Assembly (NCBI RefSeq): GCF_001426685.1
Contig: NZ_LMFB01000035.1
Location: 1-64,000 of the forward strand
DNA: 64,000 nt
Direction of reading: 5' to 3'
Source of the DNA: Rhizobium sp. Root483D2
GTDB taxonomy: Bacteria; Pseudomonadota; Alphaproteobacteria; Rhizobiales; Rhizobiaceae
Part shown: positions 4,941 to 31,704 of the stretch, in pieces
How the letters are laid out: each line of letters starts with the position of its first letter
How positions within the stretch are numbered: the stretch's first letter is position 1
Notes under the pieces: model-generated
Databases searched by the model: none
Told to the model about the DNA's origin: nothing
What the model saw: the letters and a program-made list of their open reading frames with translations, nothing else
Translations under genes and position numbers: made by a program

Positions 4941-5138
4941 CCTCAGTAGCTTCTATAGGGACAAGGAGCTCTTTGACTTTTTTCCATCGATGATATTCAC
5001 CGAAATTTCTAAATAAGTGACAAGCAATACTCCAGAGAAGATTGCCGCGATGTTGGGCCTTGAAAAATGGGTCCGTCAGTATGACGAAAACGCTAATCGA
5101 CGAAACGGAATTAACTCAGAAGTAGCATCGACTTCGCT

Positions 5139-7661
5139 ATGCTCTCTCTTATGACGGTTGTAGGTTCGACAGAAACGCAGATTTGGCTCAAGGATGAGAT
5201 AGCGCGCTTGTCCGTGCGTCTGGCTCAGGCGAGGTCTGCCGCCGACAAATACGCCCTGTTGCGCTCGTTGGTGCGTCTCCAAGGTGGCAGAATGGACCGC
5301 GAATGGGTCCATTCACGATTCCCGGACCTAAACCCAGACGCGGCGACTCGGTTCGGCCTTGCAGTAGGATTGACGGCCGTTCGTCTACTCGACGAGCGAC
5401 ATGAGCCGTCCCCGGAAGGGTTTTGGGCTGCGCAAGATTTGGATGTCTCGCTCCGCCGCCAGCGCGAAAATTTGCCTCCCGATGCTATCCTTCTGAGATA
5501 TACCGGTTATGCGGACTACCGCTCGGAAGGCCAGAAGGCCGCAGTCCACTCCCTCGTCACGATGCCTAAAGGCGCGTCGCTGATGGTCTGCCTGCCGACG
5601 GGATCCGGGAAAAGCCTTCTCTTCCAATTAGCTGCAGCTAGAATGCGAGAAGCAAGCCGCGGCTCATCCGTCGTGGTCATAACGCCGACCGTGTCACTGG
5701 CATTGGATCATGAGCGGACTTTGTCACGAATGCCTGGACTGGAAGGCAGTCGTGCGCTGGTCGGTGGAATGCATCCGGTCGACCGTGCAAATCTTGTCGA
5801 CGCATTTCGTCGGGGTGAGATTCCGTTACTCTTTATGTCACCTGAAATCGCGCTTGGATCTGTGAGAGAGTATCTCATTGAAGCAGCGACCAGTCCGGCG
5901 GAAAAACTCGAAACTCTGGGGGCCCACATCTCGGCGGTTTTCATCGATGAAGCCCATATTGTCGAGAGTTGGGGCCGATCGTTCCGACCCGACTTCCAGC
6001 GTCTGCCCGGTCTCGTTCAAGAACTTCGTTCTCGCAACAGCGATCTTCAATGTGTTCTCCTATCAGCCACTCTACCTCCGTCTGCGAGGGAAGTTCTGCG
6101 TTCCTCCTATAAATCCCAGCGGGGATGGGGCGAGGTGGACGCGGCAACCCCTCGACGGGAATTCGATATCGTCGTTCAACGTTATCGGGACGCAGAAGCG
6201 CGTCTCAAAGCCGTCGATTTTGTTATTGATCGGGCGCCTCGCCCGTTGATCGTCTACACGACACTCGCTGGTGATGAGGAAGATGATCGTGGACTGCGGG
6301 ATCTTCGGCTGAGCGCAAGTGAACTCTACGCGCGCCTGAAGAGCCGCGGCTATGACCGCATCGCTCTATTTAGCGGCGAGGTGTCTTCCACTTCAGAACG
6401 GAGCCAAATCGTGAGGGATTGGGCAGATGACAAGATCGATGTCATTGTCGCTACTTCTGCCTTCGGGATGGGTGTCGACAAAGCGAACGTAAGATCCGTC
6501 GTGCACGCCTGCCTTCCCGACAGTCCCGCTCGTTATTATCAAGAGATCGGGCGCGCAGCCCGAGACGGGCGACAGGGCCTTGCAGTTTGTCTGTTTACGG
6601 ATGCGGATAGAGACGGGGTCAAGGACGATGTCAGCCATGCCCGCTCCACCGCAACGAGTTCATGGATTACAAAAGAGGTCGCAACACCTCGATGGGACGC
6701 GATGCTTCAAGCAAGTTCGAATAGTCGTTGGATCGGCGACCGGCGTGCCCTGACCATAGACCTCGACGCGATGCGACAGGGGATCACCTTGTCGACCGAT
6801 TTCAATCGTCGTTGGAACATGAGCATTCTCAACTTGCTTCAACGCGCAAGAATGCTCGATGTCGTTTCATGTTCACACGAGCCCAATCAGTTCAAATGGG
6901 ATATCGAGATCCGCGAACCGAGCCTTCTCGCATCCGGCGTTGACGAGGTATGGGATCGCGTATTTTCCCTTCGGGACAATGAGCAGGCAGTTGCTCGGAC
7001 CGAGGTGCGGCACTTCATCGATATCGTGAGGCGGCCCCAAGACGTCTGCGTGTTGCGGGCTGTTTTCGAGCTCCTGCAAGAAAGGTATACGGACGAAATT
7101 TCGTCCTGCGGGCGATGCCCCGGGTGCCGGGCAAGAGGCGAGATTTTTGAAGCCGAACCACTTCACCGGTACAGCGCAGACATCTGGCCCGCAGGACCTC
7201 TTGCAATGCCATTGAAACTTCCTCCAGGACTGACGCTCATCATTCCCGAGGACACGACCTTCAGTAGAGATCTCGTGCCGCTTATCGCTAGACTGTCGTC
7301 ATCGGGAGTAGAACAGGTTGTCGTTCCAGACGATATAGCGCTGGATTGTGCTGTTGGCCTCAAAATGTCCGGAGCGCGCCTTGGTTTGGTAGTCAATCAT
7401 AGCAGTATCGCCGCCAACGAAGCTGGGCTTGCTCGGATACCGACGGCAGTTCTGCTCAGATCAAGAGACGATGCGTCGATCCGAGTTCTCGAGGCCATAA
7501 CGAGGTGGAAAGACCTCGCGGCATTGCCGGAACCGCTCCTCATAGTTACGAGCCCCAGCATCGAACTTAATGGTCGGCGGCTAGACCAAACACTCTCCAT
7601 CCGAGCCCCCTATTTCGAAGATTCGCTTGGACATTTTTCGATATTGGATCCCGTAGCATGA
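5139..7661 (+). CDS. dpdF: DpdF, RecQ-like DEAH helicase of the 7-deazaguanine DNA system
   Basis: An 840-residue superfamily 2 helicase. Walker A (PTGSGKSLLF) lies near residue 152, the DEAH box (FIDEAHIVESWGRSFRPDF) near 268, motif III (LLSATLPP) near 308, and motif VI (YYQEIGRAARDGRQG) near 467, all in RecQ-like form. A zinc-binding cluster (CGRCPGC) follows near 656. The N-terminal 130 residues and C-terminal 180 residues are not RecQ-like. Size, RecQ-like core and position immediately before dpdG-dpdH-dpdI match DpdF of the Dpd island first described in Salmonella, a component of its restriction arm. The stop overlaps the dpdG start (ATGA), so they are translationally coupled. A generic RecQ paralogue is the alternative but the gene order argues against it. 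Confidence 0.78.
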   Translation: MLSLMTVVGSTETQIWLKDEIARLSVRLAQARSAADKYALLRSLVRLQGGRMDREWVHSRFPDLNPDAATRFGLAVGLTAVRLLDERHEPSPEGFWAAQDLDVSLRRQRENLPPDAILLRYTGYADYRSEGQKAAVHSLVTMPKGASLMVCLPTGSGKSLLFQLAAARMREASRGSSVVVITPTVSLALDHERTLSRMPGLEGSRALVGGMHPVDRANLVDAFRRGEIPLLFMSPEIALGSVREYLIEAATSPAEKLETLGAHISAVFIDEAHIVESWGRSFRPDFQRLPGLVQELRSRNSDLQCVLLSATLPPSAREVLRSSYKSQRGWGEVDAATPRREFDIVVQRYRDAEARLKAVDFVIDRAPRPLIVYTTLAGDEEDDRGLRDLRLSASELYARLKSRGYDRIALFSGEVSSTSERSQIVRDWADDKIDVIVATSAFGMGVDKANVRSVVHACLPDSPARYYQEIGRAARDGRQGLAVCLFTDADRDGVKDDVSHARSTATSSWITKEVATPRWDAMLQASSNSRWIGDRRALTIDLDAMRQGITLSTDFNRRWNMSILNLLQRARMLDVVSCSHEPNQFKWDIEIREPSLLASGVDEVWDRVFSLRDNEQAVARTEVRHFIDIVRRPQDVCVLRAVFELLQERYTDEISSCGRCPGCRARGEIFEAEPLHRYSADIWPAGPLAMPLKLPPGLTLIIPEDTTFSRDLVPLIARLSSSGVEQVVVPDDIALDCAVGLKMSGARLGLVVNHSSIAANEAGLARIPTAVLLRSRDDASIRVLEAITRWKDLAALPEPLLIVTSPSIELNGRRLDQTLSIRAPYFEDSLGHFSILDPVA

Positions 7662-8548
7662 GCATGTTGTCGTCAACGCAAGGAACTTCGGAGCGGGTTT
7701 GGTCACTCATTGCGCTTCTTCGAGAGCATGATGGAAAGATCAGCCGTGCAGAGGCTGCGGCCTGGCTAAACCCTGAATTCTTAAAGGATGGCCAGACGGT
7801 TGGCGAAAAGTCCGGAACATTCGGACAGATTCAAGGCGCTGCGACCAGCATGGGAGCCGCTTCGTTGGTAGGGCAGGAGTTGCAACTTAATCCGGCTTGT
7901 GAGGCCGAGACCTATGATCAATTTGCAGATTGGCTATATCGTCAACTGATCGAGTTGACACCCCAAGAAAAGGACGCGCTTTTCTTGGAGCTTTTTGCAT
8001 GGATGATGTGCGAATCCGCCAAACGTCAGACCTCCGGTTGGCTGATAGGGATGACAAATTCGGAGTTTGCAGACAGGGCGGAAGCTGCCCTCCCTTCTGG
8101 GGCCATTGACGACGTTGAAAGTCGTATGAACCAAACGAAAGTGCCCTTCGTCCGCAGATGGCTCGTCTTTTTGGGTCTAATGGAGGAAATAAACGCAAAC
8201 CCTCCGTCCGAAATCGACATGTCACGACGTTTGAGGCGCGAAATAAAGCGACTTGGCCTCGATCGAGAGGTTCCGATTGAGGCGGAGGAATTCCTTCGGA
8301 TAGTACGACAGAAAATGCCTTTCATCGATGGCGGCCGAATGTACTTGGATGCGGCGCGGCGCATTAACTTCACACCGGATCCACGCCAGCTGTCCCCTGT
8401 TCTGTCCGAAGCTCTGCGCGACCTACACGATGATGGGACGCTGGAACTCAACGTGCTCGGAGATCTGTCATCCAATCTTCGCCTTCACCCGAATGCCACC
8501 CACAAGGTCAGTGCGTTTTATGCCGTAACAGTTAAGGGAGGTGCATAA
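7658..8548 (+). CDS. dpdG: DpdG, accessory protein of the 7-deazaguanine DNA restriction module
   Basis: A 296-residue soluble protein with no recognised catalytic motif. The N-terminus (SERVWSLIALLREHDGKISRAEAAAWLNPE) looks like a winged-helix or helical DNA-binding fold, and the rest is mostly helical with many charged residues. The assignment rests on its length of about 300 residues and its place between the RecQ-like dpdF and the P-loop dpdH gene, the same order as in characterised Dpd islands. It overlaps dpdF by four bases and ends one base before dpdH starts. Biochemical role unknown; it probably supports the ATPase and helicase partners. Confidence 0.65.
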   Translation: MSMLSSTQGTSERVWSLIALLREHDGKISRAEAAAWLNPEFLKDGQTVGEKSGTFGQIQGAATSMGAASLVGQELQLNPACEAETYDQFADWLYRQLIELTPQEKDALFLELFAWMMCESAKRQTSGWLIGMTNSEFADRAEAALPSGAIDDVESRMNQTKVPFVRRWLVFLGLMEEINANPPSEIDMSRRLRREIKRLGLDREVPIEAEEFLRIVRQKMPFIDGGRMYLDAARRINFTPDPRQLSPVLSEALRDLHDDGTLELNVLGDLSSNLRLHPNATHKVSAFYAVTVKGGA

Positions 8549-8549
8549 C

Positions 8550-11500
8550 ATGAGCGCTACCATGACTGCATGCTGGCGGGCCGAAGACGCGACTGCCATC
8601 ATCAGCAATGAGGCCTTGGAAGGCCACGAAGGAATATTTCTCGCTACCCACTCCCCCATTGCCGATTTCGAGGTTTCGGGCAGTCATGGGGGTGAAATTG
8701 AGGGTCGCGACGAAACAGCGCTTTTGGATGTCCTTGCTGATGGCACTCGTCGCCACGCGTTTTGCGTTGTGCAGGGAGAACCTGGTTCGGGCAAATCGCA
8801 CCTGATCCGCTGGCTGTCGATCAAGTGGCCGAGGAATGACGACGTAAAGCTGTTGTTGCAGCGTGCTGACGGAAGCCTCGAAGGCGCTCTTCGGCAAATG
8901 CGCGAGCGCCTTCCGCTGGAATTCCAAGATTTGTTCGACAACATGGGTAGGCGTCATCGGGCCACTGACCGCGGCCGAGCCAACTTGCTCTTAAGCAATC
9001 TGGCAAACGGCCTTCATCCTGACCATTTTGATCCTCCCCTTGAGGATGTTGAATGGTGCCGTACGTTTTTGCCTGGTGAACTCATAGATCTGCCGGTCAT
9101 CAAACGTCATTGGCAGGGCCCATCGCGCATCCTGGGTTTGATGGAGGGAAAGGGCGATGGAGAGGGGGCGGAGCGCAACTCTCAGTCAGCGAGTTTCAAT
9201 GTCTTCGACATCGAGGAATTGGCAGGCCACTGCGGCGCGGTGTTCAATAGTGGTGTCAAAGGACCAACAGAGCGTTTGGCCCGGAGACTCATAGAGGAAG
9301 CGGGACATATCGCCGAGCTTAGAGAATCGCGGTGGACCGCGGATGAAATCGCGGCCGAACAGGGCGAAAAGATACCAACCACCGTAAAGCTTGTCGCAGC
9401 TCTAAACCGACGTCGCAATGACGCGGTCCAGAATCTGCTTGGTGTTTCAGCCGAGGGGTTGAAAACGCTGTTTCGCCAAATCCGCGTAGCGCTCGCCGAG
9501 CGAGGCCAGCGACTCGTCCTTTTGCTTGAGGATATTACGAGTTGGGAAGGCATTGACGACAGCCTTATTGATGTTCTCGTCACAAATGCCGAGACAAGAG
9601 GAGCTGACGGCACCTCCGATATGTGTCCACTCATATCCGTTGTCGGCGTCACACCGGGCTATTACAAAAAGCTTCACGGCAACTATCGCGCTCGCATCAC
9701 GCACGAAATCAATCTTGGCGCTGCGCAACAGGACGGCGAACTGCAGGACGTCGCAACCTTAAGAAATGGCGGCAATCGAGTTCGGTTCGTGTCGCGCTAT
9801 CTGTCGGCGGTTAGGGCTGGCCCCGACTCGCTCGACCAGTGGCGAGACGAACTCCGCCAAGACAGAAATGCCGCGCCTCCAAACCGATGCGATCATTGTC
9901 AAGTCAAAGAACGGTGTCATGCCACCTTTGGCGACGATTCAGGGATCGGTCTGTTTCCGTTCACCGAAACTGCACTCGATCACTTTTTTGAGGCGTTAAA
10001 CGATAATGATAATGGCATGACCTGGAAAACGCCACGCGGTGTTTTGCAAGCTGTCTTAAGCCCAAATCTTCTTCAGGTTCGAGCCATCAACGATGGGCAA
10101 TTTCCAACCGTTCTGACGGAAAATGCCGCTTTGGTGGCAGAAAGCCGCAATCTGGGCCGCCGAGCGACCATCGTTTTAACGAATCGACTTTCAGAGCACC
10201 CGGCCGAATTTGCGAGAACGCGCCGGATTATCTCGTATTGGGGAGACAAGGAACGCGCCGATACAGTCGCAGATGGGTCAGGTGAGTTGCATTTTGCCGG
10301 CGTACCAAAATCGCTTTTTGATGCGTTGGGATTGCCATGGGTCGGGGATGAAGAGGGGCCAGCGTCGACGCAGCCGGTTGGTCCGGCACGGCCTGTCGTC
10401 AACCCTCTTGCCACCTCGCAAGAGCATATCAGCGAGGCGGCGGCACAAGTTCGATCAACCACGACACGCGCAATTCTCACACAGAAGGCTCCGACCCAAA
10501 CACGTATTCCACAGCCACCTTCAGCAAAGCGGTTGATCGGCAAGTCCGACCTTCAGTCGCGCCTCGACGAGATTCGGATCTGGGAAAGCACCGGCGAGGC
10601 TCAGAATCCGAGTGTCTACAATATGGCAGTGTTCGAAATTCTGTCAGAGATCGATCCCCGCCGTGTCGGCCTCGATCCCTACTCGAAAAGGCGGATACTG
10701 ACGGAGCAGCAGGTGAAGATCGAAGGAACTGGCCATTCGCAGCGAAGCTATCTCACGGTTCCGCGCGCAGAATGGCTTTGGCGCGGGCTCGAAGCAGTAG
10801 TCAGCCTTCAACTCGATACTACCATGTCGGTCAACGATGTCGTTTTTCATCGGCATTCCCTTGCGGTTCTTACGACAAGACTGGAAAGTCTCCTTTCGGA
10901 GTTTGCAGATCGCCGCCTCGGGATGGTTGAAGGTTCCCTATGGAGTCCAGTCCCCTTGATCACGCAAATCCTGGTCGCACGCGCGTGGTTTCGGGGAACG
11001 GTGAACCCGAACGCTCCACATTACGCACAATTGCAAGGCATCCTGTCGGACGAGCCACCGAATGAAAGCGACCCTGCAACGCGCTGTGCGCCGTGGCAGG
11101 AGTTTCTCAACAGGACGAGAGCCCATCACTCGACCCTGCGCGACGCTCTTCGCGCGATGATCTCGATGCCGCAAGGCGCTTCGTCAAGCTTCGGGCTTGC
11201 AGACGTCTCAAAGGTGGCTGGAGCGATCAAACGCTTGCGCCAGACACAAAGGTTCGACGAACCGCCGTCGGAATCTGGAGAAACCGGTGTTTCAGAATTC
11301 GATGCAATCAAAGATATAGCTTTTCATTTCAAGCACAGCATCGGCCACATCGCCCGGTTCGAACGTCAGCAGCTTGAGTCGCGTGCCACGAGCCTTCAGG
11401 AACTCCTTCGGGGGCGGACTGTCGAGGCTCACCTGGCAAGAATAGACGCCGCGATTACGTCTGTTACCGGTCTATTGCCCCGAGCAAATCCAGAGAGTGT

Positions 11501-11828
11501 ATCCGCCTGGAAAGGAGAGCTTTCTAAAGCAAAGGTGCGGATTGAAGAGAAAGCGGGCCAAACCGTGGAGGACTTCATGCTCTTGGTCGCCGAGCACCGC
11601 GACGCGGGAGCCGGATTGCGCCTCGAAGAGCTTACGCTTGCCCCGTCCAGGGACTTGGGGATCTTCCTGGATGCGGCCAAGATGGGCGAACAGGCAACGA
11701 GCCAACTGCTTGGGCACGTCAAGGATTGTATCAGCGACGGCCGGGGCTCATTTTCCCTCGCCCAAGTCCACGAGGCCGGCCGTGCCGTTTCCCAAATTCT
11801 GAGCGATCATGGTGCGCGAAATGGCTGA
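8550..11828 (+). CDS. dpdH: DpdH, large P-loop ATPase of the 7-deazaguanine DNA restriction module
   Basis: A protein of about 1,092 residues from ATG 8550, chosen because GGGAGGT lies eight bases upstream; a GTG nine bases earlier is less likely. The N-terminus has a Walker A motif (GEPGSGKSHLIRW) near residue 75, and an acidic Walker B-like segment (LVLLLEDITSWEG) near 325. A Cys/His cluster (CDHCQVKERCH) near residue 447 suggests a zinc site. The C-terminal half is helical without membrane segments. Size, P-loop, Cys cluster and gene order after dpdG identify DpdH. It probably powers a nucleoprotein machine that recognises DNA lacking the modification. The stop overlaps the start of dpdI. 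Confidence 0.75.
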   Translation: MSATMTACWRAEDATAIISNEALEGHEGIFLATHSPIADFEVSGSHGGEIEGRDETALLDVLADGTRRHAFCVVQGEPGSGKSHLIRWLSIKWPRNDDVKLLLQRADGSLEGALRQMRERLPLEFQDLFDNMGRRHRATDRGRANLLLSNLANGLHPDHFDPPLEDVEWCRTFLPGELIDLPVIKRHWQGPSRILGLMEGKGDGEGAERNSQSASFNVFDIEELAGHCGAVFNSGVKGPTERLARRLIEEAGHIAELRESRWTADEIAAEQGEKIPTTVKLVAALNRRRNDAVQNLLGVSAEGLKTLFRQIRVALAERGQRLVLLLEDITSWEGIDDSLIDVLVTNAETRGADGTSDMCPLISVVGVTPGYYKKLHGNYRARITHEINLGAAQQDGELQDVATLRNGGNRVRFVSRYLSAVRAGPDSLDQWRDELRQDRNAAPPNRCDHCQVKERCHATFGDDSGIGLFPFTETALDHFFEALNDNDNGMTWKTPRGVLQAVLSPNLLQVRAINDGQFPTVLTENAALVAESRNLGRRATIVLTNRLSEHPAEFARTRRIISYWGDKERADTVADGSGELHFAGVPKSLFDALGLPWVGDEEGPASTQPVGPARPVVNPLATSQEHISEAAAQVRSTTTRAILTQKAPTQTRIPQPPSAKRLIGKSDLQSRLDEIRIWESTGEAQNPSVYNMAVFEILSEIDPRRVGLDPYSKRRILTEQQVKIEGTGHSQRSYLTVPRAEWLWRGLEAVVSLQLDTTMSVNDVVFHRHSLAVLTTRLESLLSEFADRRLGMVEGSLWSPVPLITQILVARAWFRGTVNPNAPHYAQLQGILSDEPPNESDPATRCAPWQEFLNRTRAHHSTLRDALRAMISMPQGASSSFGLADVSKVAGAIKRLRQTQRFDEPPSESGETGVSEFDAIKDIAFHFKHSIGHIARFERQQLESRATSLQELLRGRTVEAHLARIDAAITSVTGLLPRANPESVSAWKGELSKAKVRIEEKAGQTVEDFMLLVAEHRDAGAGLRLEELTLAPSRDLGIFLDAAKMGEQATSQLLGHVKDCISDGRGSFSLAQVHEAGRAVSQILSDHGARNG

Positions 11829-12519
11829 CGCACTCGAGGAACTGGAACAACTTCTTCCTGAATTGCCTCAGGCTCTTGAGCGCCGGACGCTAGGTGAAAG
11901 CCTGTCACGTGTCGCATCTTCGTTGAACGAAATTCGGTCTGCATCTCGTCGTTTGTCCGAGGTTTTGGACGCTGCTGACCGAATAGGTCTGGGCGATGTT
12001 CCTGAAGTAGTCGAAAAGATGGATGACATGAGCGATGCCGCCCTACACATGGCATCATTGCTCATGAACGCGGATGATGCCGCTTCTCTGCATCAGATCG
12101 AACGCGACCTCCCGCAGTTTAAGTCCACGATCGCCGGTGCCTTTTCCGCGATGAGACAACGATGGCGAAACGAGGTGGCGGCGGGTTACCGGCCATTTCT
12201 TTCTCTCGGGCAACTGCTATCTAAGATTGACCATGCCAGCAGCCTCGGTGCTCGAATGGTTGAACTCGGACAGGACGCCAACGCGAGTCTGACGATAGCG
12301 CAGACCGATCAATTCAGAGATGCGGTCATTAAACTTATCGACACACGCGCGCTCCTCGAATCGGAGAAAACCTCTTTCACTGCCGATGAGCAAGTCGATA
12401 GCTTCCTGTCTGACCTCGCCCAAAACCAGGCGCGGCTTAGATCCGTAACAACGGACGTTTTTCGTTGGCTTGCAGAACACGATGCGCTTGACCTCTTCGA
12501 GGTGCGCCCGATCGGCTGA
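11809..12519 (+). CDS. dpdI: DpdI, coiled-coil accessory protein
   Basis: A 236-residue acidic, almost wholly helical protein (EELEQLLPELPQALERRTL and similar heptad-like stretches), likely coiled coil. It has no catalytic motif, signal peptide or membrane segment. Two starts are possible, 11809 or 11821; both overlap the dpdH stop, implying translational coupling. It is the last gene of the plus-strand block and its stop lies four bases from the stop of the convergent dpdJ gene. Identity as DpdI is inferred from position and size in the F-G-H-I-J order, since the sequence alone is not diagnostic. Confidence 0.6.
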   Translation: MVREMADALEELEQLLPELPQALERRTLGESLSRVASSLNEIRSASRRLSEVLDAADRIGLGDVPEVVEKMDDMSDAALHMASLLMNADDAASLHQIERDLPQFKSTIAGAFSAMRQRWRNEVAAGYRPFLSLGQLLSKIDHASSLGARMVELGQDANASLTIAQTDQFRDAVIKLIDTRALLESEKTSFTADEQVDSFLSDLAQNQARLRSVTTDVFRWLAEHDALDLFEVRPIG

Positions 12520-12523
12520 ATTC

Positions 12524-21159: not shown

Positions 21160-21165
21160 GCTCAA

Positions 21166-22775: not shown

Positions 22776-22981
22776 AAGCGTAGGACAATCGATAAGGGGA
22801 TGGGGCGGCTTTGCCGCTCCTTTTCGTGGCTAGAGTTGACGTGAGCCGAAGTCAATGGCGATTTTCCCGCTTCGCTCCCGCCATCAAAATCGCCGTTTCC
22901 CGCTGCGCGGTGACATCGGTTCCCGCACACTCCTCACCGGAACCTATCGTCCCGCATGGTGCGAGAGCAAGGAAACAGAAT

Positions 22982-23330
22982 ATGGGAACGGTCGGGAAAT
23001 TCAAAAAAGAGGGTGGGTCTACCAGGGGGAAATCGAGAGCATTACCAGTGCCGCCCTGGCGGCGGGATTGTGCCCGTCCAATCGAAACCGAACGCCGAGG
23101 CCCCCGACTATCGCGTCTACCGCAGCGCATCGCAGGTTGACGCCGCGTGGCGCAAGAAGACTCGGGCTGGCGACAGATACCTCGTGGTCACGCTCGACGA
23201 TCCAGCTTTCGCATATCCTATTCAATGCAGATTGACGCGAGTTGATGAGGACTATGTCCTGTTCTGGACTCGCAAATTGCTCGACTCCCCGCTCGCCTGC
23301 ACGGGCGAGCGGCTCTCGTCCTCGGCCTGA
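22982..23330 (+). pseudogene. DUF736 family gene with frameshifts
   Basis: Joining three frames gives a DUF736 protein: MGTVGKFKKEGG, then VYQGEIESITSAALAA, then PNAEAPDYRVYRSASQVDAAWRKK split by frame changes, then DRYLVVTLDDPAFAYPIQCR and YVLFWTRK. DUF736 proteins are about 100-residue products common on rhizobial plasmids and conjugative elements. At least two frameshifts are needed, so the gene is inactive unless the sequence has errors. Its 3' end overlaps the end of the opposite-strand HAD gene. Confidence 0.65.
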
Positions 23331-24118: not shown

Positions 24119-24974
24119 TGCTTCCACCTGTGATACACACCGAGGAGATCGGTGTCTCTATTCGAATCACCGAATTAGACTCCTTTTTCGCCGGCGGCAC
24201 AAAGGCAAATACGGCCGCGGTTACGATAATCCAAAGGATCAGCGCCTTAATGGCCCAGGACTGCAAACGTTGGGCCGGTTCCAAGACCCTCACTTTGTCG
24301 GCCACTTTCACGCCGACGAGATAGGTCTCGACGATATAATTCTTGAGATACTTGACTTTGATGTCGGGAGTTATCTCGGAAGTGGCATTGGGGTCAATGA
24401 AAGCCTGCGCCCAGTTCTTAGGTTCGGTCCACGAGATCGGCATCCAAAATACCAGTGATGCCGGATGGTCGGCGCTTGTCTTCGTCGGATATCGAAAGCG
24501 CGACCGGATCGCATGAAACGTCACCAGAGCGCCAAACGCCGCGAGCAGTGCAAAAACCACGAACAGCCCGTAGCTTGCAATGATCAACCCGCTTGTCACG
24601 ACCTGATGCACCCCGGTCCAGTCCACTACAGAAAGCGGATAGGCATCCGCAAGACGGTTAAAGAGAAGGCTCGAAAAGGCAGACATGAACGTCACGATCG
24701 TCAGCAATCGGGTCGCCTTGCCATCCTGATAGTCCGTGTGCTTCGTAACTTCGTTGAGGGATTCGCGCGCGAGCTTTAGTGCATCATCCAGCTTGGCGTC
24801 ATCGGCCGCGAAATTTTTAATCTCTTTTTCGATCGTAGCGATGACAGTCCCGTCGTCGATCCCCGATTGGGCGTTGGGAGCCGCACTGCGAGGAAAATAG
24901 GTTATTGGCCGTCCAGCAAAGGCTTCGCAGATCGCCTGAACGCAGCCTAGCGATTCCTTGCGCATTTCGCTCAT
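24072..24974 (-). CDS. Membrane protein resembling PycTM-type effectors
   Basis: A 300-residue protein with three or four membrane helices: near residues 105-125 (LLTIVTFMSAFSSLLF), 145-180 (GLIIASYGLFVVFALLAAFGALVTF) and 255-275 (ALILWIIVTAAVFAFVP). The layout, with a DGKATRLLTI segment before the first helix and VADKVRVLEPAQRLQSWAI before the last, is like the PycTM domain of Pycsar effectors (which pair with a nucleotide cyclase) and related four-helix effector proteins. No cyclase is nearby. It overlaps the upstream transporter gene by four bases (ATGA), so it belongs to the operon. It could be a membrane effector or help the precursor transporter. Confidence 0.5.
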   Translation of the reverse strand: MSEMRKESLGCVQAICEAFAGRPITYFPRSAAPNAQSGIDDGTVIATIEKEIKNFAADDAKLDDALKLARESLNEVTKHTDYQDGKATRLLTIVTFMSAFSSLLFNRLADAYPLSVVDWTGVHQVVTSGLIIASYGLFVVFALLAAFGALVTFHAIRSRFRYPTKTSADHPASLVFWMPISWTEPKNWAQAFIDPNATSEITPDIKVKYLKNYIVETYLVGVKVADKVRVLEPAQRLQSWAIKALILWIIVTAAVFAFVPPAKKESNSVIRIETPISSVCITGGSNVSTAANGQPCGTSP

Positions 24975-25534
24975 GCTGGCATCAACCCCAATCGTCGGTC
25001 ACGGTTACGGATCCAAAAGAGAACCGGCAGCGCGGCAACAACCATGATCAATTTGCCGACCACCTGTCCAGCCAGAAAATCAAGCGAACCGAATGCCAGC
25101 CAAAGAAACATCACGCTATCCACGATGAGGCCGACAATGCTGCTTGCAATAGCCGCTTTGACCAGGCCCTTTTTCTGCAAAGGCGTGAACACCAGCAGGT
25201 CCGCGATCTCAGAGATCAGGAAGGCGCTTGCGGAGGCCAGCGCCAAAGACGGCGCCGTGAAGGTCGTCGACAGGAAAGCGCCAACAACGATCGCTCCGAG
25301 TGACCACAAAAGGCCGAGGCGACGCTGCACCAGATCGCGCAAAACAAGCGCAAGCCCTACCAGGAGAACCCCGCTCGGTGCAGTCAGGCCGAAGCCGACC
25401 GGGATGAGGCAAGGACCCTCTGGCACGCAAACCGTGCCGACATGACCGATCATATAATTGGCGAGCGGGATGCAGGCGGCGAAGCCAGCCAGAAATATCC
25501 CGCCCTCAATCCATTGCTTGTTGCGCGTCGTCAT
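24971..25534 (-). CDS. VUT-family (YhhQ/QPTR-like) queuosine precursor transporter
   Basis: A 187-residue inner membrane protein from ATG 25534, chosen because AAGGAGG lies just upstream; the longer frame up to 25645 overlaps queC. Five or six hydrophobic helices are visible. The pattern APSGVLLVGLALVLRDLVQRRLG followed by ALASASAFLISEIADLLVF is that of the VUT (DUF165) family, which includes YhhQ, the importer of preQ0 and preQ1. Its place between the preQ0 synthesis genes and a membrane protein in the same operon fits import of 7-deazaguanine precursors as a salvage route. It starts 13 bases after queC and ends in a four-base overlap. Confidence 0.72.
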   Translation of the reverse strand: MTTRNKQWIEGGIFLAGFAACIPLANYMIGHVGTVCVPEGPCLIPVGFGLTAPSGVLLVGLALVLRDLVQRRLGLLWSLGAIVVGAFLSTTFTAPSLALASASAFLISEIADLLVFTPLQKKGLVKAAIASSIVGLIVDSVMFLWLAFGSLDFLAGQVVGKLIMVVAALPVLFWIRNRDRRLGLMPA

Positions 25535-25547
25535 CCCGCCCTCCTTG

Positions 25548-26249
25548 TCATGCTTCTTCAGCGACGAATTTTTCGTAGCCTTTTGCCCGCAGATCACAGG
25601 CCGGGCATGTGCCACAGCCATAACCCCAATCATGGAACTCGCCACGCTCTCCGAGATAGCAGGTGTGGCTTTCCTTCACGATGATTTCCACCAACGCCCG
25701 GCCACCCAAATCCTTGGCCAGTTGCCAGGTTTGCGCTTTGTCGATCCACATCAACGGCGTGTCGAGGACGAAACGCTTTTCCATTCCGATGTTGAGCGCC
25801 ACCTGCAAGGCTTTGATCGTATCGTCACGGCAGTCGGGATAGCCGGAATAATCCGTCTCACACATTCCCCCGACGATATGCTTTAGGCCGCGCCGATAGG
25901 CCAGGGCCGCCGCAAAGGTCAGAAATATCAAGTTTCGGCCAGGCACGAACGTGTTTGGGAGGCCGGATTCGGACATTTCGATCTGCATGCCGCTGGTCAG
26001 CGCCGTATCCGAGATCTCACCGAGAGCGGCAAGCGATATCGTGTGATCATCGCCCAGACGATCTGCCCATACAGGATTGAGCGCACTCAGTTCAGCGCGC
26101 AACGTGTCCCGGCATTCGAGCTCGATCCGATGGCGCTGACCATAATCGAACCCAACGGTCTCCACGCGTTCGAAGCGGTCGAGCGCCCAGGCAAGACAAG
26201 TCGTTGAGTCTTGGCCGCCCGAAAATAGCACCAGTGCAGTCGTCGACAT
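25548..26249 (-). CDS. queC: QueC, 7-cyano-7-deazaguanine (preQ0) synthase
   Basis: 233 residues from ATG 26249 with AAGGA upstream. The PP-loop ATP-binding motif ([16 protein letters not shown]) is at residues 7-22. A zinc site at the C-terminus is formed by Cys residues in SHTCYLGER and [12 protein letters not shown]. QueC converts 7-carboxy-7-deazaguanine to preQ0 with ATP and ammonia, the last step of preQ0 formation. Length and motifs are complete, so the enzyme should be active. Here it sits in an operon with dpdA and is likely a dedicated source of preQ0 for DNA modification; a chromosomal copy for tRNA queuosine may exist as well. Confidence 0.93.
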
Positions 26250-26262
26250 CGCCCGATTCCTT

Positions 26263-26619
26263 TTACTTGCCTTCAAATTCCGCCCAGCAGGATGGCGTCT
26301 CGAATACCTTCACGGAATTCAACTCGTCGAGCAGCGGCTTGACCTTCTGCCAAATCCAGACAGCGATATTCTCCGCCGTCGGGTTCTCGAGGCCGTCAAT
26401 ATCGTTGAGTGTATGATGATCGAGGCTCTCGAGAACTGGCCCGAAGACCTTCTCCACATCAAAGAAGTCGATCACAAATCCAGTCCGTGGATCGACTACG
26501 CCTTTGAGTTGCAGCTCGACCCGATAAGAATGTCCGTGCATGCGATGGCATTTGTGCGTTGTGGGCACATTCGGAAGTCTGTGAGCGGCCTCGAAGGTAA
26601 AAGCTTGTGTGATTTTCAT
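26263..26619 (-). CDS. queD: QueD, 6-carboxy-5,6,7,8-tetrahydropterin synthase
   Basis: 118 residues, the usual length. The zinc ligands of the 6-pyruvoyltetrahydropterin synthase fold appear as FEAAHRLPN and [12 protein letters not shown], and the catalytic Cys lies in the same segment ([10 protein letters not shown]). [23 protein letters not shown] and [11 protein letters not shown] are further conserved signatures. QueD converts dihydroneopterin triphosphate to carboxytetrahydropterin, the substrate of QueE. It overlaps queE by four bases and queC follows after a 13-base gap. It needs the GTP cyclohydrolase product, and no folE lies in this window. Confidence 0.93.
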
Positions 26620-27248
26620 GGGATCCCGATCATTTTGTGTGTCTGCAGGCTGAGCCGCCAGCGGGGGTTTTCAAGACAAAATGCCGTCACGGCCGCGATG
26701 TTTTCAATCTGCTCCGGCCCGTCCATCGGCTGCAGGAAGTAATGCTCGAAGGAAACGTCGGGGAGATCGTCCGGAAGCAACCGCAGCTGCGGATAAACCA
26801 GCTTCAGCTCACTGCCGGATTTGAGATTGAATGGCGCGCCGGCTTTTGGACTGACGCAGATCCAATCGATGCCGTCCGGCGGTTCGATTGTTCCGTTCGT
26901 CTCGATGGCGATCTCGAACCCGTGTTCGTGAACCGCCACGATCAGCGCATCATCGATCTGCAGCAGCGGTTCACCGCCGGTGAAGACGACGTAGCGCCTG
27001 CTCTCACCGCTCCCCCAAGTCTGAGCGATCGCCGACGCAAGCTCACCGGCGTCACGAAATTTGCCGCCGCCTTCGCCATCTGTCCCGATGAAGTCTGTAT
27101 CGCAGAACTGGCACGCTGCCTTATGCCGGTCTTCCTCGCGACCGGTCCAAAGATTGCAACCAGCAAAACGGCAAAATACCGCGGCGCGGCCAGCTTGAGC
27201 ACCTTCGCCCTGGAGCGTCTTGAACAACTCCTTGACAGAATAGGTCAT
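26616..27248 (-). CDS. queE: QueE, 7-carboxy-7-deazaguanine synthase (radical SAM)
   Basis: 210 residues with LFKTLQGEGAQAGRAAVF at the N-terminus, typical of QueE. The cluster-binding motif is C31-x14-C46-x2-C49, an expanded form of the radical SAM CxxxCxxC motif known in QueE proteins. VFTGGEPLLQ and AIETNGT are the SAM and substrate-binding motifs. It rearranges carboxytetrahydropterin to 7-carboxy-7-deazaguanine. Its start overlaps the stop of the upstream dpdB-like gene by four bases, tying preQ0 synthesis directly to DNA modification. Confidence 0.93.
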   Translation of the reverse strand: MTYSVKELFKTLQGEGAQAGRAAVFCRFAGCNLWTGREEDRHKAACQFCDTDFIGTDGEGGGKFRDAGELASAIAQTWGSGESRRYVVFTGGEPLLQIDDALIVAVHEHGFEIAIETNGTIEPPDGIDWICVSPKAGAPFNLKSGSELKLVYPQLRLLPDDLPDVSFEHYFLQPMDGPEQIENIAAVTAFCLENPRWRLSLQTHKMIGIP

Positions 27249-28363
27249 GATAAGCTCACCAATTTTTGCGGAACAGTCTCGGATAAATCGGTCGCCTGGC
27301 TACGGCGGCGCTTGATGTCAGCTCGAACAATGCCAACCAAGTACTGCGCAAGCGTGACGATGTCGCGATTGACGTTCTGAACAGACTTCCAGTTGCGCTT
27401 GTCGGTTTCGCCGAAGTTCCATTCCCCCGACGTCCAGGCTGTGTTGTCGATCAGGCAGGCGAGGCCCTTGGAAAACTCATCTGACGTTCTCGCCCCGTCG
27501 AGCAACGCCAAGAGTTCCATGACATAGCCAAGTGACATGATGCCAGCGCCATGCACGAGCCGAGAGGTCTTCGGCGTATGATCGACCCATTCTTTTCGGA
27601 AAACGTATTGAACAGCGCCATAAAAGTCGCTGATCAGTTTGAAGCAGAGGTCAGCGCCATCGGGCTCGCGAATGAGCTCGCGCATCACACCGTCGCTCAA
27701 TGAATTGATGATAACACGTTGGATTGCGGTGTCCCTGATGATGCCGGTGGGATTAGTGTGTTGGTACACCTGTCCCTTAAGCAGCGACTTTTCATCGTAG
27801 TTCAAGCGCGCAGCGATCTCTGCGGCAACGGACCGGTCGCCGAGACGGCGCGGCAGGCCGGTGACTGTTGGCAGCAGTTCATAGATCAGCGATTTCGGCA
27901 GCGGCCGGGTGTTGTTGATCAAAACGAACTGCCGGCGTAGTTCTTCGTCGTCCCTGCAAATGATTGCGGACACGAAGACCTGGAAATCTTTCTCGTGAAC
28001 CTGCCCGAGCGCTGTGAGGCGTTGTTGCCCGTCGACGACCATGCCGGGCGCGCCGGCGGCGATATCGATTTCGACCGTGCAGCGCCCGTCGGCGCTTTGG
28101 TCGAACACCTGGACGCTGTTGGTAAAAGCAACGACGATCGGGTTCGGCAAAATTGCTTCCGGCTTTTCCAGATAATCCCGGATCTCACGAATGTGACCGG
28201 CGATCTGTGGACGCTGAAAGCCGCTCAGCGCGCCTGCATCATCGCGTGCGACCCGCTCGATAACGGCAAACTTCTGCAGATCAGACGCTAGCGCTGCAAA
28301 TGAAAGGACTGTGTGCGCTTCGCTCTGTCTGGCTCTGATCGCTTGGAATTTCAATGTTGTCAT
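27245..28363 (-). CDS. dpdB: DpdB-like DGQHR-type protein, paralogue 1
   Basis: About 372 residues from ATG 28363; a longer frame reaches 28411. The core motif is GMVVDGQQRLTALGQVH near residue 105, a DGQQR variant of the DGQHR motif, followed by RRQFVLINNTRPLPKSLIYELLP. LSGFQRPQIAGHIREIRDYL and ILPNPIVVAF precede it. This matches DpdB, the partner that DpdA needs to exchange guanine for preQ0 in DNA. It overlaps the end of dpdA by 83 bases, an unusually long overlap, and queE by four. A paralogue lies on the other side of dpdA, so one copy may have a separate job. Confidence 0.78.
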   Translation of the reverse strand: MTTLKFQAIRARQSEAHTVLSFAALASDLQKFAVIERVARDDAGALSGFQRPQIAGHIREIRDYLEKPEAILPNPIVVAFTNSVQVFDQSADGRCTVEIDIAAGAPGMVVDGQQRLTALGQVHEKDFQVFVSAIICRDDEELRRQFVLINNTRPLPKSLIYELLPTVTGLPRRLGDRSVAAEIAARLNYDEKSLLKGQVYQHTNPTGIIRDTAIQRVIINSLSDGVMRELIREPDGADLCFKLISDFYGAVQYVFRKEWVDHTPKTSRLVHGAGIMSLGYVMELLALLDGARTSDEFSKGLACLIDNTAWTSGEWNFGETDKRNWKSVQNVNRDIVTLAQYLVGIVRADIKRRRSQATDLSETVPQKLVSLS

Positions 28364-29648
28364 TTCGGCCACTATTAATTGGGAGTTGGTCGACCAGGGC
28401 ATCGTAGACACCCAGATTGTGAATGCCGCGCCGCTTGTTGCGATTGCTCGCTCGAAAGATCACTACTTCGATCGAAAGCGCAGAACAGATGGGGCAGCTG
28501 CACCGCTTCCAAGGCCTATCGCGAAGCGTTCGCTCATAGCGTTCGCGAAGGTCCTTGACTGCTTTAGCGCCAGGCAATTCGTCGATCGTCGTCCCCATGA
28601 CCGCGGGCGTGGCATAGGCTAAGACGCTGTCGAGTGTCTCTTCCAGTTGCGCTTCGCCTTTGTCGTATGAGCGGAGCGCCGCCAGAGCGGTTTTCTCCAT
28701 CGAAACCAACCGCTCCTGGTTGAGCGACCCGCGCTTTGCGAGGCGCTGTAGCTTTGGGTTCTCAAGCGCCTGAGGGACGCGGATAGCTGTGTAGTATTCG
28801 AGTTTGCCGCTCTTTGTCGGAAGGAAGTAGTTCGCCTTCGCGTCTTTGAATGCACGGATCAACGGCGACGTCGTGTCAAAACTGGTAATATTAAAAGAGC
28901 CGAAGGTGTGGATCTCATCAGCCTTCGCAAACCCTAGAATATGAAGGCGGGTACTTGGCGGGATGGCGTCCCGGATCGCTGTCAGACAGGATTTGATCTG
29001 TGCCGCCTTCAGCGGAACGGTACCGCCGAGTGCCAGGTAATCGTAGCCCATTGCGACCAGACGGCGCGCGCTTTCGGCCATGCTGCCAGGGGACCAACCC
29101 TGGATGACACCCATTGGCGTGAACCGGTTTGACATATGCTGCGTTGCCGTCCGAAAAGCGGCCGCATTCTCAAGCGTAATCTCAAATCGCCGGCGTGCCT
29201 CTTGAGTGCCGCCTTTAAACCCGGTCAGGCTTTCGTCGAAATCGAAAATGATATGGTCGACCGAGCAGCCGTGGGTAAACCGCGCATCGTCGTAAAATTC
29301 AGCGGTGTCCTCCGGCGTGTACGGAGGCTTTTCTTCCTTATGATATGTAAACGCCCCGCAATCGCCAAAGATAGGTAGATGTTCGAATGCTGGCTTGTCG
29401 AGGCGAAGAAACTCCCGTGCACCCACCCGGCGGAAGCGCATTGACTGTGCTTCCGTATATTTTCCGCCCACTGCGGCGCCGCCGACGATGCCGCGGGAAA
29501 CAAGCATGCCTTTGTACGGGGCGTATCCCATGATTTCATGTGGATAAGCGTCATCCCAATAGGGCGTGCGGCCCTCCGAATAACGGTCGCGGAGAAAGTC
29601 GTAACCGGGATCGACGTGATCGAGACTGTCGGCAAAAATGAACTTCAT
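28281..29648 (-). CDS. dpdA: DpdA, DNA-guanine transglycosylase inserting 7-deazaguanine
   Basis: 455 residues, related to tRNA-guanine transglycosylases but starting KFIFADSLDHVDPGYDF, typical of DpdA. The TGT landmarks are recognisable: FGDCGAFTY (D96, equivalent to the general-base Asp), YLALGGTVPLK, LHILGFAKA, and SFDTTSPLIR (D258, at the nucleophile position). A zinc site C383-x-C385-x2-C388 with H410 is present as in TGT. DpdA replaces guanine in DNA with preQ0. It overlaps the upstream dpdB paralogue by four bases and the downstream one by 83 bases. The last 35 residues are a polar tail not needed by the fold. It is the defining enzyme of the island. Confidence 0.9.
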   Translation of the reverse strand: MKFIFADSLDHVDPGYDFLRDRYSEGRTPYWDDAYPHEIMGYAPYKGMLVSRGIVGGAAVGGKYTEAQSMRFRRVGAREFLRLDKPAFEHLPIFGDCGAFTYHKEEKPPYTPEDTAEFYDDARFTHGCSVDHIIFDFDESLTGFKGGTQEARRRFEITLENAAAFRTATQHMSNRFTPMGVIQGWSPGSMAESARRLVAMGYDYLALGGTVPLKAAQIKSCLTAIRDAIPPSTRLHILGFAKADEIHTFGSFNITSFDTTSPLIRAFKDAKANYFLPTKSGKLEYYTAIRVPQALENPKLQRLAKRGSLNQERLVSMEKTALAALRSYDKGEAQLEETLDSVLAYATPAVMGTTIDELPGAKAVKDLRERYERTLRDRPWKRCSCPICSALSIEVVIFRASNRNKRRGIHNLGVYDALVDQLPINSGRNDNIEIPSDQSQTERSAHSPFICSASV

Positions 29649-30769
29649 CGTGTCGGCCTCGATAACTTCCGGTCGAGTTGCATCAGGTGCTCGGCAAGCA
29701 GCCGATTGTGCTGCGGCGTGCCCTGGATCTCATTCCACTGGAGGCCAAGCCCTTCCCAGGATCCTTCTGTCCAGGCGCATAGCGGCGCGATCCGGTGCAA
29801 CGCCTCCCGGACCTCGGCCTCCGGCGTCGCAGAACTGTCGGCACGTAGCATCACCTGATCCATCAAAGCGCCCATTGCCTTGATGCCCGCAGAATGCATC
29901 AGCCGACTTTCCGTCGGTTGCTTACCCCATGCCTCCTGAAATACGTCACGTACCGCCGTCCAGTACAGAGCAAGCGCCTCGTACATCGCGTCGGGATCAT
30001 ACGCTTCCGCCGAAAGCTTATATTGATGAAGAGCCCCGTGAGGGCCCTTGAGGTTTTGCTTTATCACATCGATCAAAGCCGTGTCATTAACGACGCTCTT
30101 CTCGTCACCGGCATCGGAGGCGCGTCGTATCAAGTGATAGAATGGTGACTTCTGCTGCCGATTAAGGAGATTGCAAAGCTCGCTTGGCAGCCGGTTGGCG
30201 GCGAGATCTTTTGGCAGAAGTGACCCGACTTCAGGGAGTAACTCGTTGATCAGCCGAACATCCAGTGCTTTGACTTTGTTGACGAGGATAAACTGTTCGC
30301 GATGGACTTGCACATCCTGGGAAACGAAACCGACAACCGGGACGGGGAAACGACTGTCCTTGGCTTTTGCGAGCGCCAAAGATCGTTGCTGGCCGTCGAC
30401 GATCCAAGCGGCTCGCTTTCCGTCCTCATAGAGAGGAATATTCAATGTGCCTGAAACGCCAACCTCCGACAGCCCTTTTGGCTTCGGGCCGCGGGAGACG
30501 TCAAACGTCACGTCGGATGAAAGGGCGAGGGTAATAGCGTTCGGGAAGAGAACCGGGCCGCTGTCTAGAAATTCGACGATGGCCTTGACGTGGCTTTTGA
30601 TTTCCTTGCGCTGGAAGCCCTTCAGGTCTTTTTCATCGCGATGGATACGGCTAATGTTGGCAATCCGCGTCAGGTCCGAGCCATGCAGAAAAAACGCATA
30701 GACGTCGATACGATCGCCTTGTTGCGTTTTGACCGCTCGAACCGTCAGATTTTCCTTCACGCTCTTCAC
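29645..30769 (-). CDS. dpdB: DpdB-like DGQHR-type protein, paralogue 2
   Basis: 374 residues from GTG 30769, whose GTGA overlaps the preceding stop. It carries AAWIVDGQQRSLALAKA near residue 125, HREQFILVNKVKALDVRLINELLPEVGSLLP and LKGFQRKEIKSHVKAIVEFL, the same order of motifs as the downstream paralogue, but the two differ in most positions. Length and position directly before dpdA fit DpdB. Having two DpdB-like proteins on either side of dpdA suggests a heteromeric complex or a division between catalysis support and regulation. Which copy is the functional counterpart of Salmonella DpdB cannot be told from sequence. Confidence 0.78.
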   Translation of the reverse strand: MKSVKENLTVRAVKTQQGDRIDVYAFFLHGSDLTRIANISRIHRDEKDLKGFQRKEIKSHVKAIVEFLDSGPVLFPNAITLALSSDVTFDVSRGPKPKGLSEVGVSGTLNIPLYEDGKRAAWIVDGQQRSLALAKAKDSRFPVPVVGFVSQDVQVHREQFILVNKVKALDVRLINELLPEVGSLLPKDLAANRLPSELCNLLNRQQKSPFYHLIRRASDAGDEKSVVNDTALIDVIKQNLKGPHGALHQYKLSAEAYDPDAMYEALALYWTAVRDVFQEAWGKQPTESRLMHSAGIKAMGALMDQVMLRADSSATPEAEVREALHRIAPLCAWTEGSWEGLGLQWNEIQGTPQHNRLLAEHLMQLDRKLSRPTR

Positions 30770-31704
30770 AGCGCGCCCTCTTCGCGGATCTCGGATGTGA
30801 GTCTGGAAAATCGCTTCTGCTCGCAGGCGATATTCAACTCATCCCGCAATATCCGGAGCAGCCTTGTCGCCCGACCATCAGCGCGTGACCAGTGATCCCG
30901 GACGATTAATTTAAGGTCACTGTCCGACATCCGCGTGCCGGATTTGGAAAGAGGGCGATCCCATCCGGAAAGCGCGATCTCAACGAGTTCGGCATGTTCT
31001 TTAGCTCTCGCAAGTGGCGCAGCGGCGAGGATATTCTCGACAAAATGGCGAACGGCACGGGACGCGAAATCAGACCAGGTGCCGGGCAAAGTGCTCTGCG
31101 GGCCGTCCAGGCGGTCATCATAAGGAAGTCGGACACTCTCCAGGCGAGGGTTCAGATTGGGCACGTCGCGACCACCGACTATCCTTATCCTCTCACACAA
31201 CGCGTCCGAAATGCCTTGAAGAGCTGGGGCTACCATTCGCAAATAGGAGGACGGAAGTGCGATCATGATAAGGCCGCTTGATCGGCCGAGCAGGTCGTTC
31301 AGCATCTTGTGCCCGCCAAGCGCTGCCCACCAATCGGCGTCGCCATGATCCTGAAGCTTGTCCAGGACACAATCCGGGCTGCCTTTGGAAACCGTCAGAT
31401 TATAAGAGGGTATTTCTTGCTGGCTGCGGATGAGGCCGAGCCCGGCCGATACGATATGGAGTTCGGCCTGGGCGGCATCGGCCGCTTTCTTCGCCTCCAC
31501 AAATGATCGGCCGCAGTAGATGTCCTTTGCCGGAGCCATGGCCTCGACAGTTGCAACCTTCGCCATCCAGGATTGGGCGACGTGCCCTAAAGTGCCGATC
31601 GGCAAATCTCGGGCGCACAGGAAAGGATTGGGGGCAACCCGCTTTCTTTGCGTGCAGGCGGTGAGGATTACGGGCATAATGGGCGTCTCTGTGGCGTCAC
31701 CCAT
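30766..31704 (-). CDS. YaaA/DUF6884-like protein, possible DpdC counterpart
   Basis: 312 residues (start 31704; ATG 31677 is an alternative). The N-terminal 170 residues have the pattern of DUF6884/YaaA-like proteins: VILTACTQRKR, then AKDIYCGRSFVEAKKAAD, then ELHIVSAGLGLIRSQQEIPSYNL. This fold is related to the core of archaeosine synthase ArcS, which acts on preQ0 in tRNA. The C-terminal third is helical. It heads the operon and overlaps a dpdB gene by four bases. In characterised islands DpdC converts inserted preQ0 to the amido form, so a preQ0-modifying role would fit here, but I cannot show homology to DpdC. DNA binding is another possibility. Confidence 0.5.
   Translation of the reverse strand: MGDATETPIMPVILTACTQRKRVAPNPFLCARDLPIGTLGHVAQSWMAKVATVEAMAPAKDIYCGRSFVEAKKAADAAQAELHIVSAGLGLIRSQQEIPSYNLTVSKGSPDCVLDKLQDHGDADWWAALGGHKMLNDLLGRSSGLIMIALPSSYLRMVAPALQGISDALCERIRIVGGRDVPNLNPRLESVRLPYDDRLDGPQSTLPGTWSDFASRAVRHFVENILAAAPLARAKEHAELVEIALSGWDRPLSKSGTRMSDSDLKLIVRDHWSRADGRATRLLRILRDELNIACEQKRFSRLTSEIREEGAL

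Follow-up and report, generated by a model that had tools for sequence, protein, structure and literature searches.

What could serve as the DNA-destroying arm of a 7-deazaguanine-in-DNA (Dpd) island that lacks DpdK, the canonical phospholipase D-type (PLD) nuclease? The question is posed by a 26-kb island of 17 genes, all with open frames, at positions 5139-31704 of the DNA analysed here (the window, that is, positions 1 to 64,000 of contig NZ_LMFB01000035.1 of Rhizobium sp. Root483D2). A preliminary description had recognized a Dpd island in this interval, with dpdA, two dpdB-like genes and queC-queD-queE beside a putative restriction arm, dpdF to dpdJ, and every gene that it named is present. 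The arm itself has to be redescribed: the DpdF-J homologues are there, but DpdK is absent from the genome and a Dna2-like nuclease is coupled to dpdJ instead. That nuclease (18853-21165) had been overlooked, as had DpdC and the DndB-like, HAD hydrolase, membrane-like and 7-cyano-7-deazaguanine (preQ0)-transporter-like proteins. Judged from its genes and their distribution, the island is probably a plasmid-borne restriction-modification-like system in which a known self-marking module is combined with interchangeable effector arms, in this case a DNA destroyer of the Dna2 type.

From 31704 downwards the minus strand carries dpdC, dpdB1, dpdA, dpdB2, queE, queD, queC, the transporter gene, the membrane-like gene and the HAD hydrolase gene. 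Past the latter lie the DndB-like gene on the plus strand, then the gene for the 770-residue nuclease and a long dpdJ on the minus strand. The dpdF-G-H-I genes occupy the plus strand, convergent with dpdJ.

A probable two-gene nuclease-helicase of the Dna2 type

The NCBIfam equivalog cut-offs are the curated criterion for the family calls given here; PADLOC models were used alongside. The two genes that make up the proposed engine are:

18853..21165, minus strand: Cas4/Dna2-like iron-sulphur (Fe-S) nuclease of 770 residues with a DEDD-exonuclease-like second domain, the proposed effector (TIGR03491, E 8.6e-13, 48 bits against a cut-off of 97)
12524..18856, minus strand: long DpdJ, 2110 residues (PADLOC PDLC02895, E 0 over 1-2108; NCBIfam DpdJ, 319.7 bits against a cut-off of 800, over 702-1402)

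In the nuclease, residues C20, D124, D144, K146, Q158, Y162, C245, C248 and C254 are invariant across 31 aligned rows. The DEDD-exonuclease-like fold of the second domain emerges from a per-domain structure comparison of its model. When the whole model is compared by Foldseek, Dna2 ranks first (E 1.6e-3), with a poor superposition over the full chain and many rows from the spliceosomal protein Prp8.

The long DpdJ consists of an N-terminal Dna2/Upf1-type superfamily 1 (SF1) helicase (about residues 47-480), a superfamily 2 (SF2) helicase (about 700-1400), which is the part in common with canonical DpdJ, and a C-terminal cysteine cluster. Dna2 (entry 5EAN, E 6e-13) matches over residues 49-453, and Upf1 over 193-460. 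The GPPGTGKT and DEAS motifs are kept in 31/31 long DpdJ proteins, as is C1925, and C2073, C2077 and C2080 are found in 30 of the 31; the DpdJ of A. vitis has a cysteine at just one of these four columns. This cluster agrees with Bell et al., who remark that the DUF1998 cysteine cluster disappeared from canonical Dpd but survives in some of the deeper Dpd-like systems (PMC12458937). Long DpdJ (open frames of 2080-2281 residues) accompanies the nuclease in 30/30 nuclease-type rows, and short DpdJ (1479-1541 residues) is found in 9/9 DpdK-type rows. PADLOC contains a model as long as the Root483D2 protein, so the long DpdJ helicase itself has already been seen.

The start of dpdJ overlaps the stop of the nuclease gene by 4 bp in Root483D2. 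Among 32 orthologous loci (the non-orthologous L041 being left out) the same overlap occurs in 25, the two genes lie at most 13 bp apart in six more, and one locus is fragmented. Profile comparison equates nuclease residues 7-444 with positions 10-403 of TM0106-type proteins (probability 99.2, E 6e-20) and DpdJ residues 52-475 with positions 742-1131 (probability 100, E 5e-47). The nuclease and the SF1 half of DpdJ match opposite ends of single-chain TM0106-family nuclease-helicases. The TM0106-type alignment holds five single-chain proteins from plasmid records, two of the seven fetched regions being unused; all seven were picked through matches to DpdJ or to the nuclease, so that the match of the helicase half is partly one by selection. 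The Fe-S PD-(D/E)XK nuclease motifs and the Upf1/Dna2-type SF1 helicase that characterize TM0106-family RecB-like nuclease-helicases and Dna2 are both present. Unlike those single polypeptides, the Root483D2 version is split over two overlapping genes, has its helicase half fused to DpdJ and is tied to a DNA-marking island.

The remainder of the arm

Four further genes belong to the arm:

5139..7661, plus strand: DpdF, RecQ-like SF2 helicase (PADLOC PDLC02862, E 9.1e-195; NCBIfam DpdF, 473.7 bits against a cut-off of 550; RecQ, 8e-46)
7658..8548, plus strand: DpdG (PADLOC, 2.9e-7; NCBIfam DpdG, E 9.6e-16, 58 bits against a cut-off of 80)
8541..11828, plus strand: DpdH, ATPase (PADLOC PDLC02884, E 0; weak AAA/NACHT Pfam matches below the gathering score)
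11809..12519, plus strand: DpdI (no direct model match; profile comparison with canonical DpdI, probability 96.4 over 109 columns)

The DpdF-J labels given earlier hold by homology, most clearly in the PADLOC matches of DpdF (9e-195), DpdH and DpdJ (both E 0). They do not hold by the NCBIfam equivalog cut-offs, under which DpdF, DpdG, DpdH (292.1 bits against 450) and DpdJ all fall; the arm is therefore a divergent branch. DpdG and DpdI, first named from gene order, can now be assigned, weakly, from profile evidence as well; for DpdI the profile match sits at the C-terminal end.

The canonical dpdD-K operon is thus represented by homologues of DpdF, G, H, I and J. DpdK has no match in the Root483D2 genome; its model is over cut-off in five of ten genomes or records (G743, G460, G490, G725 and A. 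vitis). Nothing in the genome exceeds the DpdE cut-off, the only matches being four weak ones to helicases; G743, G460 and A. vitis each yield a DpdE score above it. DpdD is without a match among the island proteins scanned, the genome itself not having been searched for it; the DpdD model scores 630 bits on the A. vitis protein. By its gene content, then, the arm is not canonical.

The modification module

The genes predicted to mark the DNA are:

28281..29648, minus strand: DpdA, DNA-guanine transglycosylase (NF041059, 565.8 bits against a cut-off of 200; 7UI4, E 6.7e-101)
29645..30769, minus strand: DpdB1 (NF041060, 445.7 bits against 300)
27245..28411, minus strand: DpdB2 (NF041060, 389.3 bits against 300)
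30766..31704, minus strand: DpdC (PADLOC PDLC02815, E 5.7e-94)
26616..27248, minus strand: QueE, Cx14CxxC type (TIGR04508, 350.2 bits against 240)
26263..26619, minus strand: QueD (TIGR03367, 103.7 bits against 89)
25548..26276, minus strand: QueC (TIGR00364, 207.6 bits against 150)

dpdA, the two dpdB genes and queC-queD-queE had been named correctly, since all are over their equivalog cut-offs. The motifs claimed for DpdA are also borne out: 7UI4, a solved DNA-guanine transglycosylase, aligns across DpdA residues 1-418, and the two have in common GDCGAFT, a TS(F/I)D(T/S)T stretch and a CxCxxC...H cluster, which we take to be the catalytic and zinc sites. Elsewhere, the genome contains another long match to QueC. 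With DpdA over its cut-off, and DpdB twice, the island carries the two genes demanded by the GATOR-GC survey (PMC11888242). The preQ0 genes and DpdC complete the set. DpdC converts 2'-deoxy-preQ0 (dPreQ0) to the deoxynucleoside of amido-7-deazaguanine (dADG) (PMC12839542).

Two dpdB genes flank dpdA in 31/31 loci and joins with a DpdA match above 300 bits (29 distinct, two genomes being entered twice). Among six further records, Bradyrhizobium 41S5 has two dpdB genes and Enterobacter one, and dpdB was without a match in the Acetobacter and Paenibacillus records. Additional dpdB copies and an adjoining YhhQ transporter have been reported earlier (PMC11888242).

Distribution of the two arms

DpdK and the nuclease were together in none of the sets searched. 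In a survey of 72,556 plasmid records the nuclease is matched in five. Four of these matches are full-length, all in records with DpdA; the fifth, a partial one, is a 23% match to a TM0106-type protein in a record without a DpdA match. DpdK occurs in six other plasmid records, and none has both. Seventeen plasmid records have DpdA at a coverage of at least 80%: four with the nuclease, five with DpdK and, by these searches, eight with neither. One of these eight, from Allocoleopsis, has an annotated PLD-like gene beside a DpdJ-like helicase.

In the genome collection the nuclease is found at 32 loci in 31 genomes, at 28 of them over at least 80% of its length. It is followed by DpdJ at 29; of the other three, two lie at a contig end and one is a partial copy. 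DpdA passes its cut-off in 27 of the 31 genomes, and one further genome has it in pieces. DpdK exceeds its cut-off in none of the 31, five having weak sub-threshold matches. Devosia sp. ZB163 has a second, partial nuclease copy with a piece of DpdH (L039, 10001-11087), besides the longer arm at L013.

A class-wide DpdA search of 385 genomes left only Root483D2 over cut-off, with 76 others matched far below it. This was too sparse for co-occurrence, and a family-level sample, unbiased by the nuclease, was therefore used. Among these 394 genomes, DpdA (E up to 1e-50) is present in eight. Five of them have DpdK (four over cut-off; G580 scores 92.4 of 100 bits) and three, including Root483D2, have the nuclease; none has both and none has neither. 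Fisher's test gives p 0.018 for the eight genomes and p 0.005 for ten plasmid records that were chosen for carrying either. G743, of the same genus as Root483D2, has a DpdK arm with a DpdA 89% identical to that of the window. G460 has two Dpd islands (L095-L097); one is armed with DpdK, and in the 20 kb covered at the other only the modification module and a pair of membrane-like and HAD genes were found.

Two further records are of note. In the island of Bradyrhizobium sp. 41S5 (L124, 7996-11593), dpdC is neighboured by an annotated PD-(D/E)XK nuclease and by a DEAD helicase; the island has neither known arm and is perhaps another arm type. A Deinococcus taeanensis plasmid (L121, 11078-33176) encodes DpdE/F/H, a DpdJ divided between two genes, an annotated 3'-5' exonuclease and a PLD protein; its DpdA match is only weak (47 bits) and lies in a neighbouring gene.

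Exchange of arms

The arm and the modification genes have separate histories. A DpdA tree of 45 rows comprises 32 nuclease-type, nine DpdK-type and four with neither; L117, a second fetch of L040, was left out, and in L108 and L110 DpdA is on a different contig from the nuclease. On this tree the DpdK label changes seven times, with seven changes forced by the starred branches and seven to eight over bootstraps. The count is likewise seven when nuclease and DpdK are compared with the other rows omitted. A reduced tree of 36 rows, without five long-branch and the four armless rows, still requires five changes, and a single DpdK-type clade on it is rejected by the approximately unbiased (AU) test (p-AU 2.8e-5). 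A quick DpdH tree of 38 rows (28 nuclease-type, nine DpdK-type and one Deinococcus; L025, with 70 residues in reach, omitted) places all 28 nuclease-type rows on one side of a single branch, which is one change (support of 100 in the Shimodaira-Hasegawa-like approximate likelihood-ratio test, SH-aLRT).

The nucleotide comparisons show the joints. In 500-bp bins, the window and G018 share 81-96% identity between 21.5 and 31.5 kb; between 5.5 and 21 kb they align only in patches, at 64-79%, and the border is the start of the nuclease gene (near 21.2 kb). Against G001, it is the arm that is close (81-91%), with 66-81% from 25 kb onward, and the comparison with G002 breaks likewise near 25 kb. At L026, the dpdB, dpdA and que genes are 95-98% identical to those of the window, the nuclease 59% and DpdJ 51%. 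Elsewhere, modification genes 85-90% identical to the window's adjoin DpdK arms.

Related bacteria thus appear to swap attack arms between islands. Natural pairs with similar modification modules and different arms (the window with G743, or with L026) are ready-made swap experiments, bearing on whether arms read only the mark, on which nuclease kills and on how far arms are exchangeable.

Proposed mechanism and its alternatives

The island might work as follows. QueD, QueE and QueC would make preQ0, with FolE presumably supplied by the host. DpdA and the two DpdB ATPases would swap guanine in the cell's own DNA for preQ0, which DpdC would convert to its amide form, ADG. DpdF, G, H and I would inspect DNA and release the DpdJ-nuclease pair onto DNA without the mark. 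The pair would act as a Dna2-like enzyme encoded by two genes, in which the helicase half is continuous with the YprA-type helicase of DpdJ; the resulting two motors would by family have opposite polarity. These would pass DNA to the Fe-S PD-(D/E)XK nuclease and the DEDD-like exonuclease domain, so that unmarked DNA would be degraded processively, as opposed to the cutting expected of DpdK. The arm (dpdFGHI plus dpdJ-nuclease) would be a cassette that replaces the canonical dpdEFGHIJKD arm beside the same kind of modification module. The sequences themselves display the homologies and motifs, the order and coupling of the genes, the non-co-occurrence and the repeated exchange, whereas the DNA products, the effector role of the nuclease, the sensing step and the motor polarities are inferred. 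A broader proposal, to which we give about an even chance, is that 7-deazaguanine marking is a common self-label that takes unrelated DNA-destroying arms. On this view the present arm would be a previously undescribed engine, a split Dna2-like nuclease-helicase joined to a YprA-like helicase, with a pair of motors and a pair of nuclease folds for RecBCD-like degradation of unmarked DNA.

Several observations weigh against such a mechanism. With the nuclease model Foldseek returned nothing at E 0.001 or less, and a sequence search of the PDB with the nuclease profile gave no match at E up to 1; the fold therefore rests on the model and the family profiles. The DEDD-like domain may be inactive, because its residues differ from the textbook set (D353-x-D355). 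DpdD is found in 0/31 nuclease genomes, in a search that held no positive control. DpdA was not found in three of the 31, whose nuclease contigs measure at most 8.1 kb. The non-co-occurrence of DpdK and nuclease rests on small sets. Since eight of the 17 DpdA plasmid records have neither nuclease by these searches, and one of the two G460 DpdA loci has no arm alongside, arms are, it seems, also lost or of other types.

Could this be an ordinary canonical Dpd system, in which the 770-residue protein is a bystander or assists in repair and the nuclease proper is encoded elsewhere or is part of DpdF-J? DpdF, H and J do match Dpd models, and Dna2-like enzymes often work in repair. This is nonetheless unlikely: DpdK is unmatched in the Root483D2 genome and over cut-off in none of the 31 nuclease genomes, the 4-bp overlap with dpdJ recurs in 25 of 32 loci of the nuclease gene, and the arm that contains this gene has a history apart from that of the modification genes. 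On these grounds a bystander nuclease was rejected.

In another alternative, the modification enzymes would have their DNA loaded or trimmed by the nuclease and long DpdJ, and the island would serve modification and repair with no role in defence; we regard this as very improbable. Modification can exist alone, as the eight plasmid records without either nuclease indicate. Yet the nuclease arm occupies the canonical arm's place, modification genes close to the window's accompany DpdK arms, and in Salmonella the dpd cluster restricts plasmid DNA that lacks the modification (PMC5567051). There is even less reason to expect a decayed or silent island, its genes present but not working, given that 17/17 frames are open, that 31 rows show no variation in the nuclease and helicase motifs and that relatives with nucleases 81-92% identical retain the arm.

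Relation to known systems

A restriction-modification-like island with a Dna2-like arm remains the preferred reading. Canonical Dpd islands (A. vitis CG957, Shinella zoogloeoides, Enterobacter pPOL9A) resemble it in dpdA, dpdB, dpdC-like or adjacent genes and dpdF-G-H-I-J. Unlike them, the Root483D2 island has a Dna2-like nuclease, shows no DpdE, DpdK or DpdD in the searches described above, and encodes a DpdJ that is longer by about 600 residues, with the SF1 helicase and the C-terminal cysteine cluster.

BRIGADE (Bell et al., 2025 preprint, PMC12458937) also joins 7-deazaguanine genes with YprA-type helicases, and its PLD nuclease is occasionally exchanged for a PD-(D/E)XK one. The available part of that source reports it from halophilic archaea alone, as a rule with two YprA-like helicases, and the terms 'RecB', 'Dna2' and 'Cas4' do not occur in its main text (PMC12458937). 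By contrast, the Root483D2 arm is bacterial and its DpdJ is fused to an SF1 helicase. Assignment to BRIGADE was rejected, as the host is not a halophilic archaeon and the 32 named nuclease loci carry bacterial titles. In 2017, neighbourhood searches, partly given as data not shown, placed a Cas4-like nuclease and a helicase near tgt and 7-deazaguanine genes of phage 9g and others (PMC5567051); the available part of that paper describes neither the split Dna2-like architecture nor arm exchange. No description of a split Dna2-like arm, or of arm exchange on one modification module, was found in the literature covered, the scope of which excluded supplements and the main Dpd papers.

Accessory genes and setting of the island

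The four remaining genes of the island are:

21570..22775, plus strand: DndB-like DGQHR protein, candidate regulator (Pfam DndB, 2.4e-59; TIGR03233, 142.1 bits against a cut-off of 328)
23252..24127, minus strand: HAD-family hydrolase, accessory (Pfam Hydrolase, 1.2e-9)
24072..24974, minus strand: helical membrane-like protein, weakly PycTM-like, accessory (PADLOC PycTM, 3.1e-6; low-confidence all-helical model)
24971..25645, minus strand: VUT/YhhQ-like preQ0 transporter (Pfam Vut_1, 1.2e-9; TIGR00697, 32.8 bits against a cut-off of 51)

The DndB-like gene is divergent from the nuclease gene and may control the arm, because DndB is a proposed negative regulator of Dnd systems (PMC12839542). 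A PADLOC scan of 16 proteins of the island (QueD being outside the scan) found only this DndB-like protein and no DndC, DndD or DndE, for DpdF and DpdJ among the best 25 matches listed. Dnd phosphorothioation was rejected, since the DndB-like protein stands alone in that scan.

Each of the four plasmid records with the membrane-like protein also has DpdA, and wherever the gene for this protein appears among the loci fetched, the HAD gene accompanies it (15 entries, 13 distinct). The pair is found in some nuclease-type, DpdK-type and armless islands; some islands thus probably carry it as an accessory to their modification half. It is also possible that the pair (23252-24974) is a backup effector. 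No fold is claimed for the membrane-like protein (mean predicted local distance difference test score, pLDDT, 61.2; best Foldseek row E 0.05).

By blastn similarity the left edge of the island lies at 5107 (against G002) or 5109 (G001), and the right edge at 31828 (G018), 31842 (G002) or 32052 (G001); similarity to G018 resumes outside, at 33071-34721. Segments 4301-5140 and 31701-33100 share no 12-mers, direct or inverted. The plasmid location first proposed agrees with RepC, encoded at 53731-54933 on the same contig, because of which the contig is read as a plasmid.

Adjoining the island, a RES-domain protein (32608-33225) and an upstream gene without a Pfam match (together 31870-33225) resemble a RES-type toxin-antitoxin pair. 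Farther along, beside an 853-residue protein without any Pfam match (46972-49533), lies a KAP-family P-loop NTPase of 1001 residues (49798-52803).

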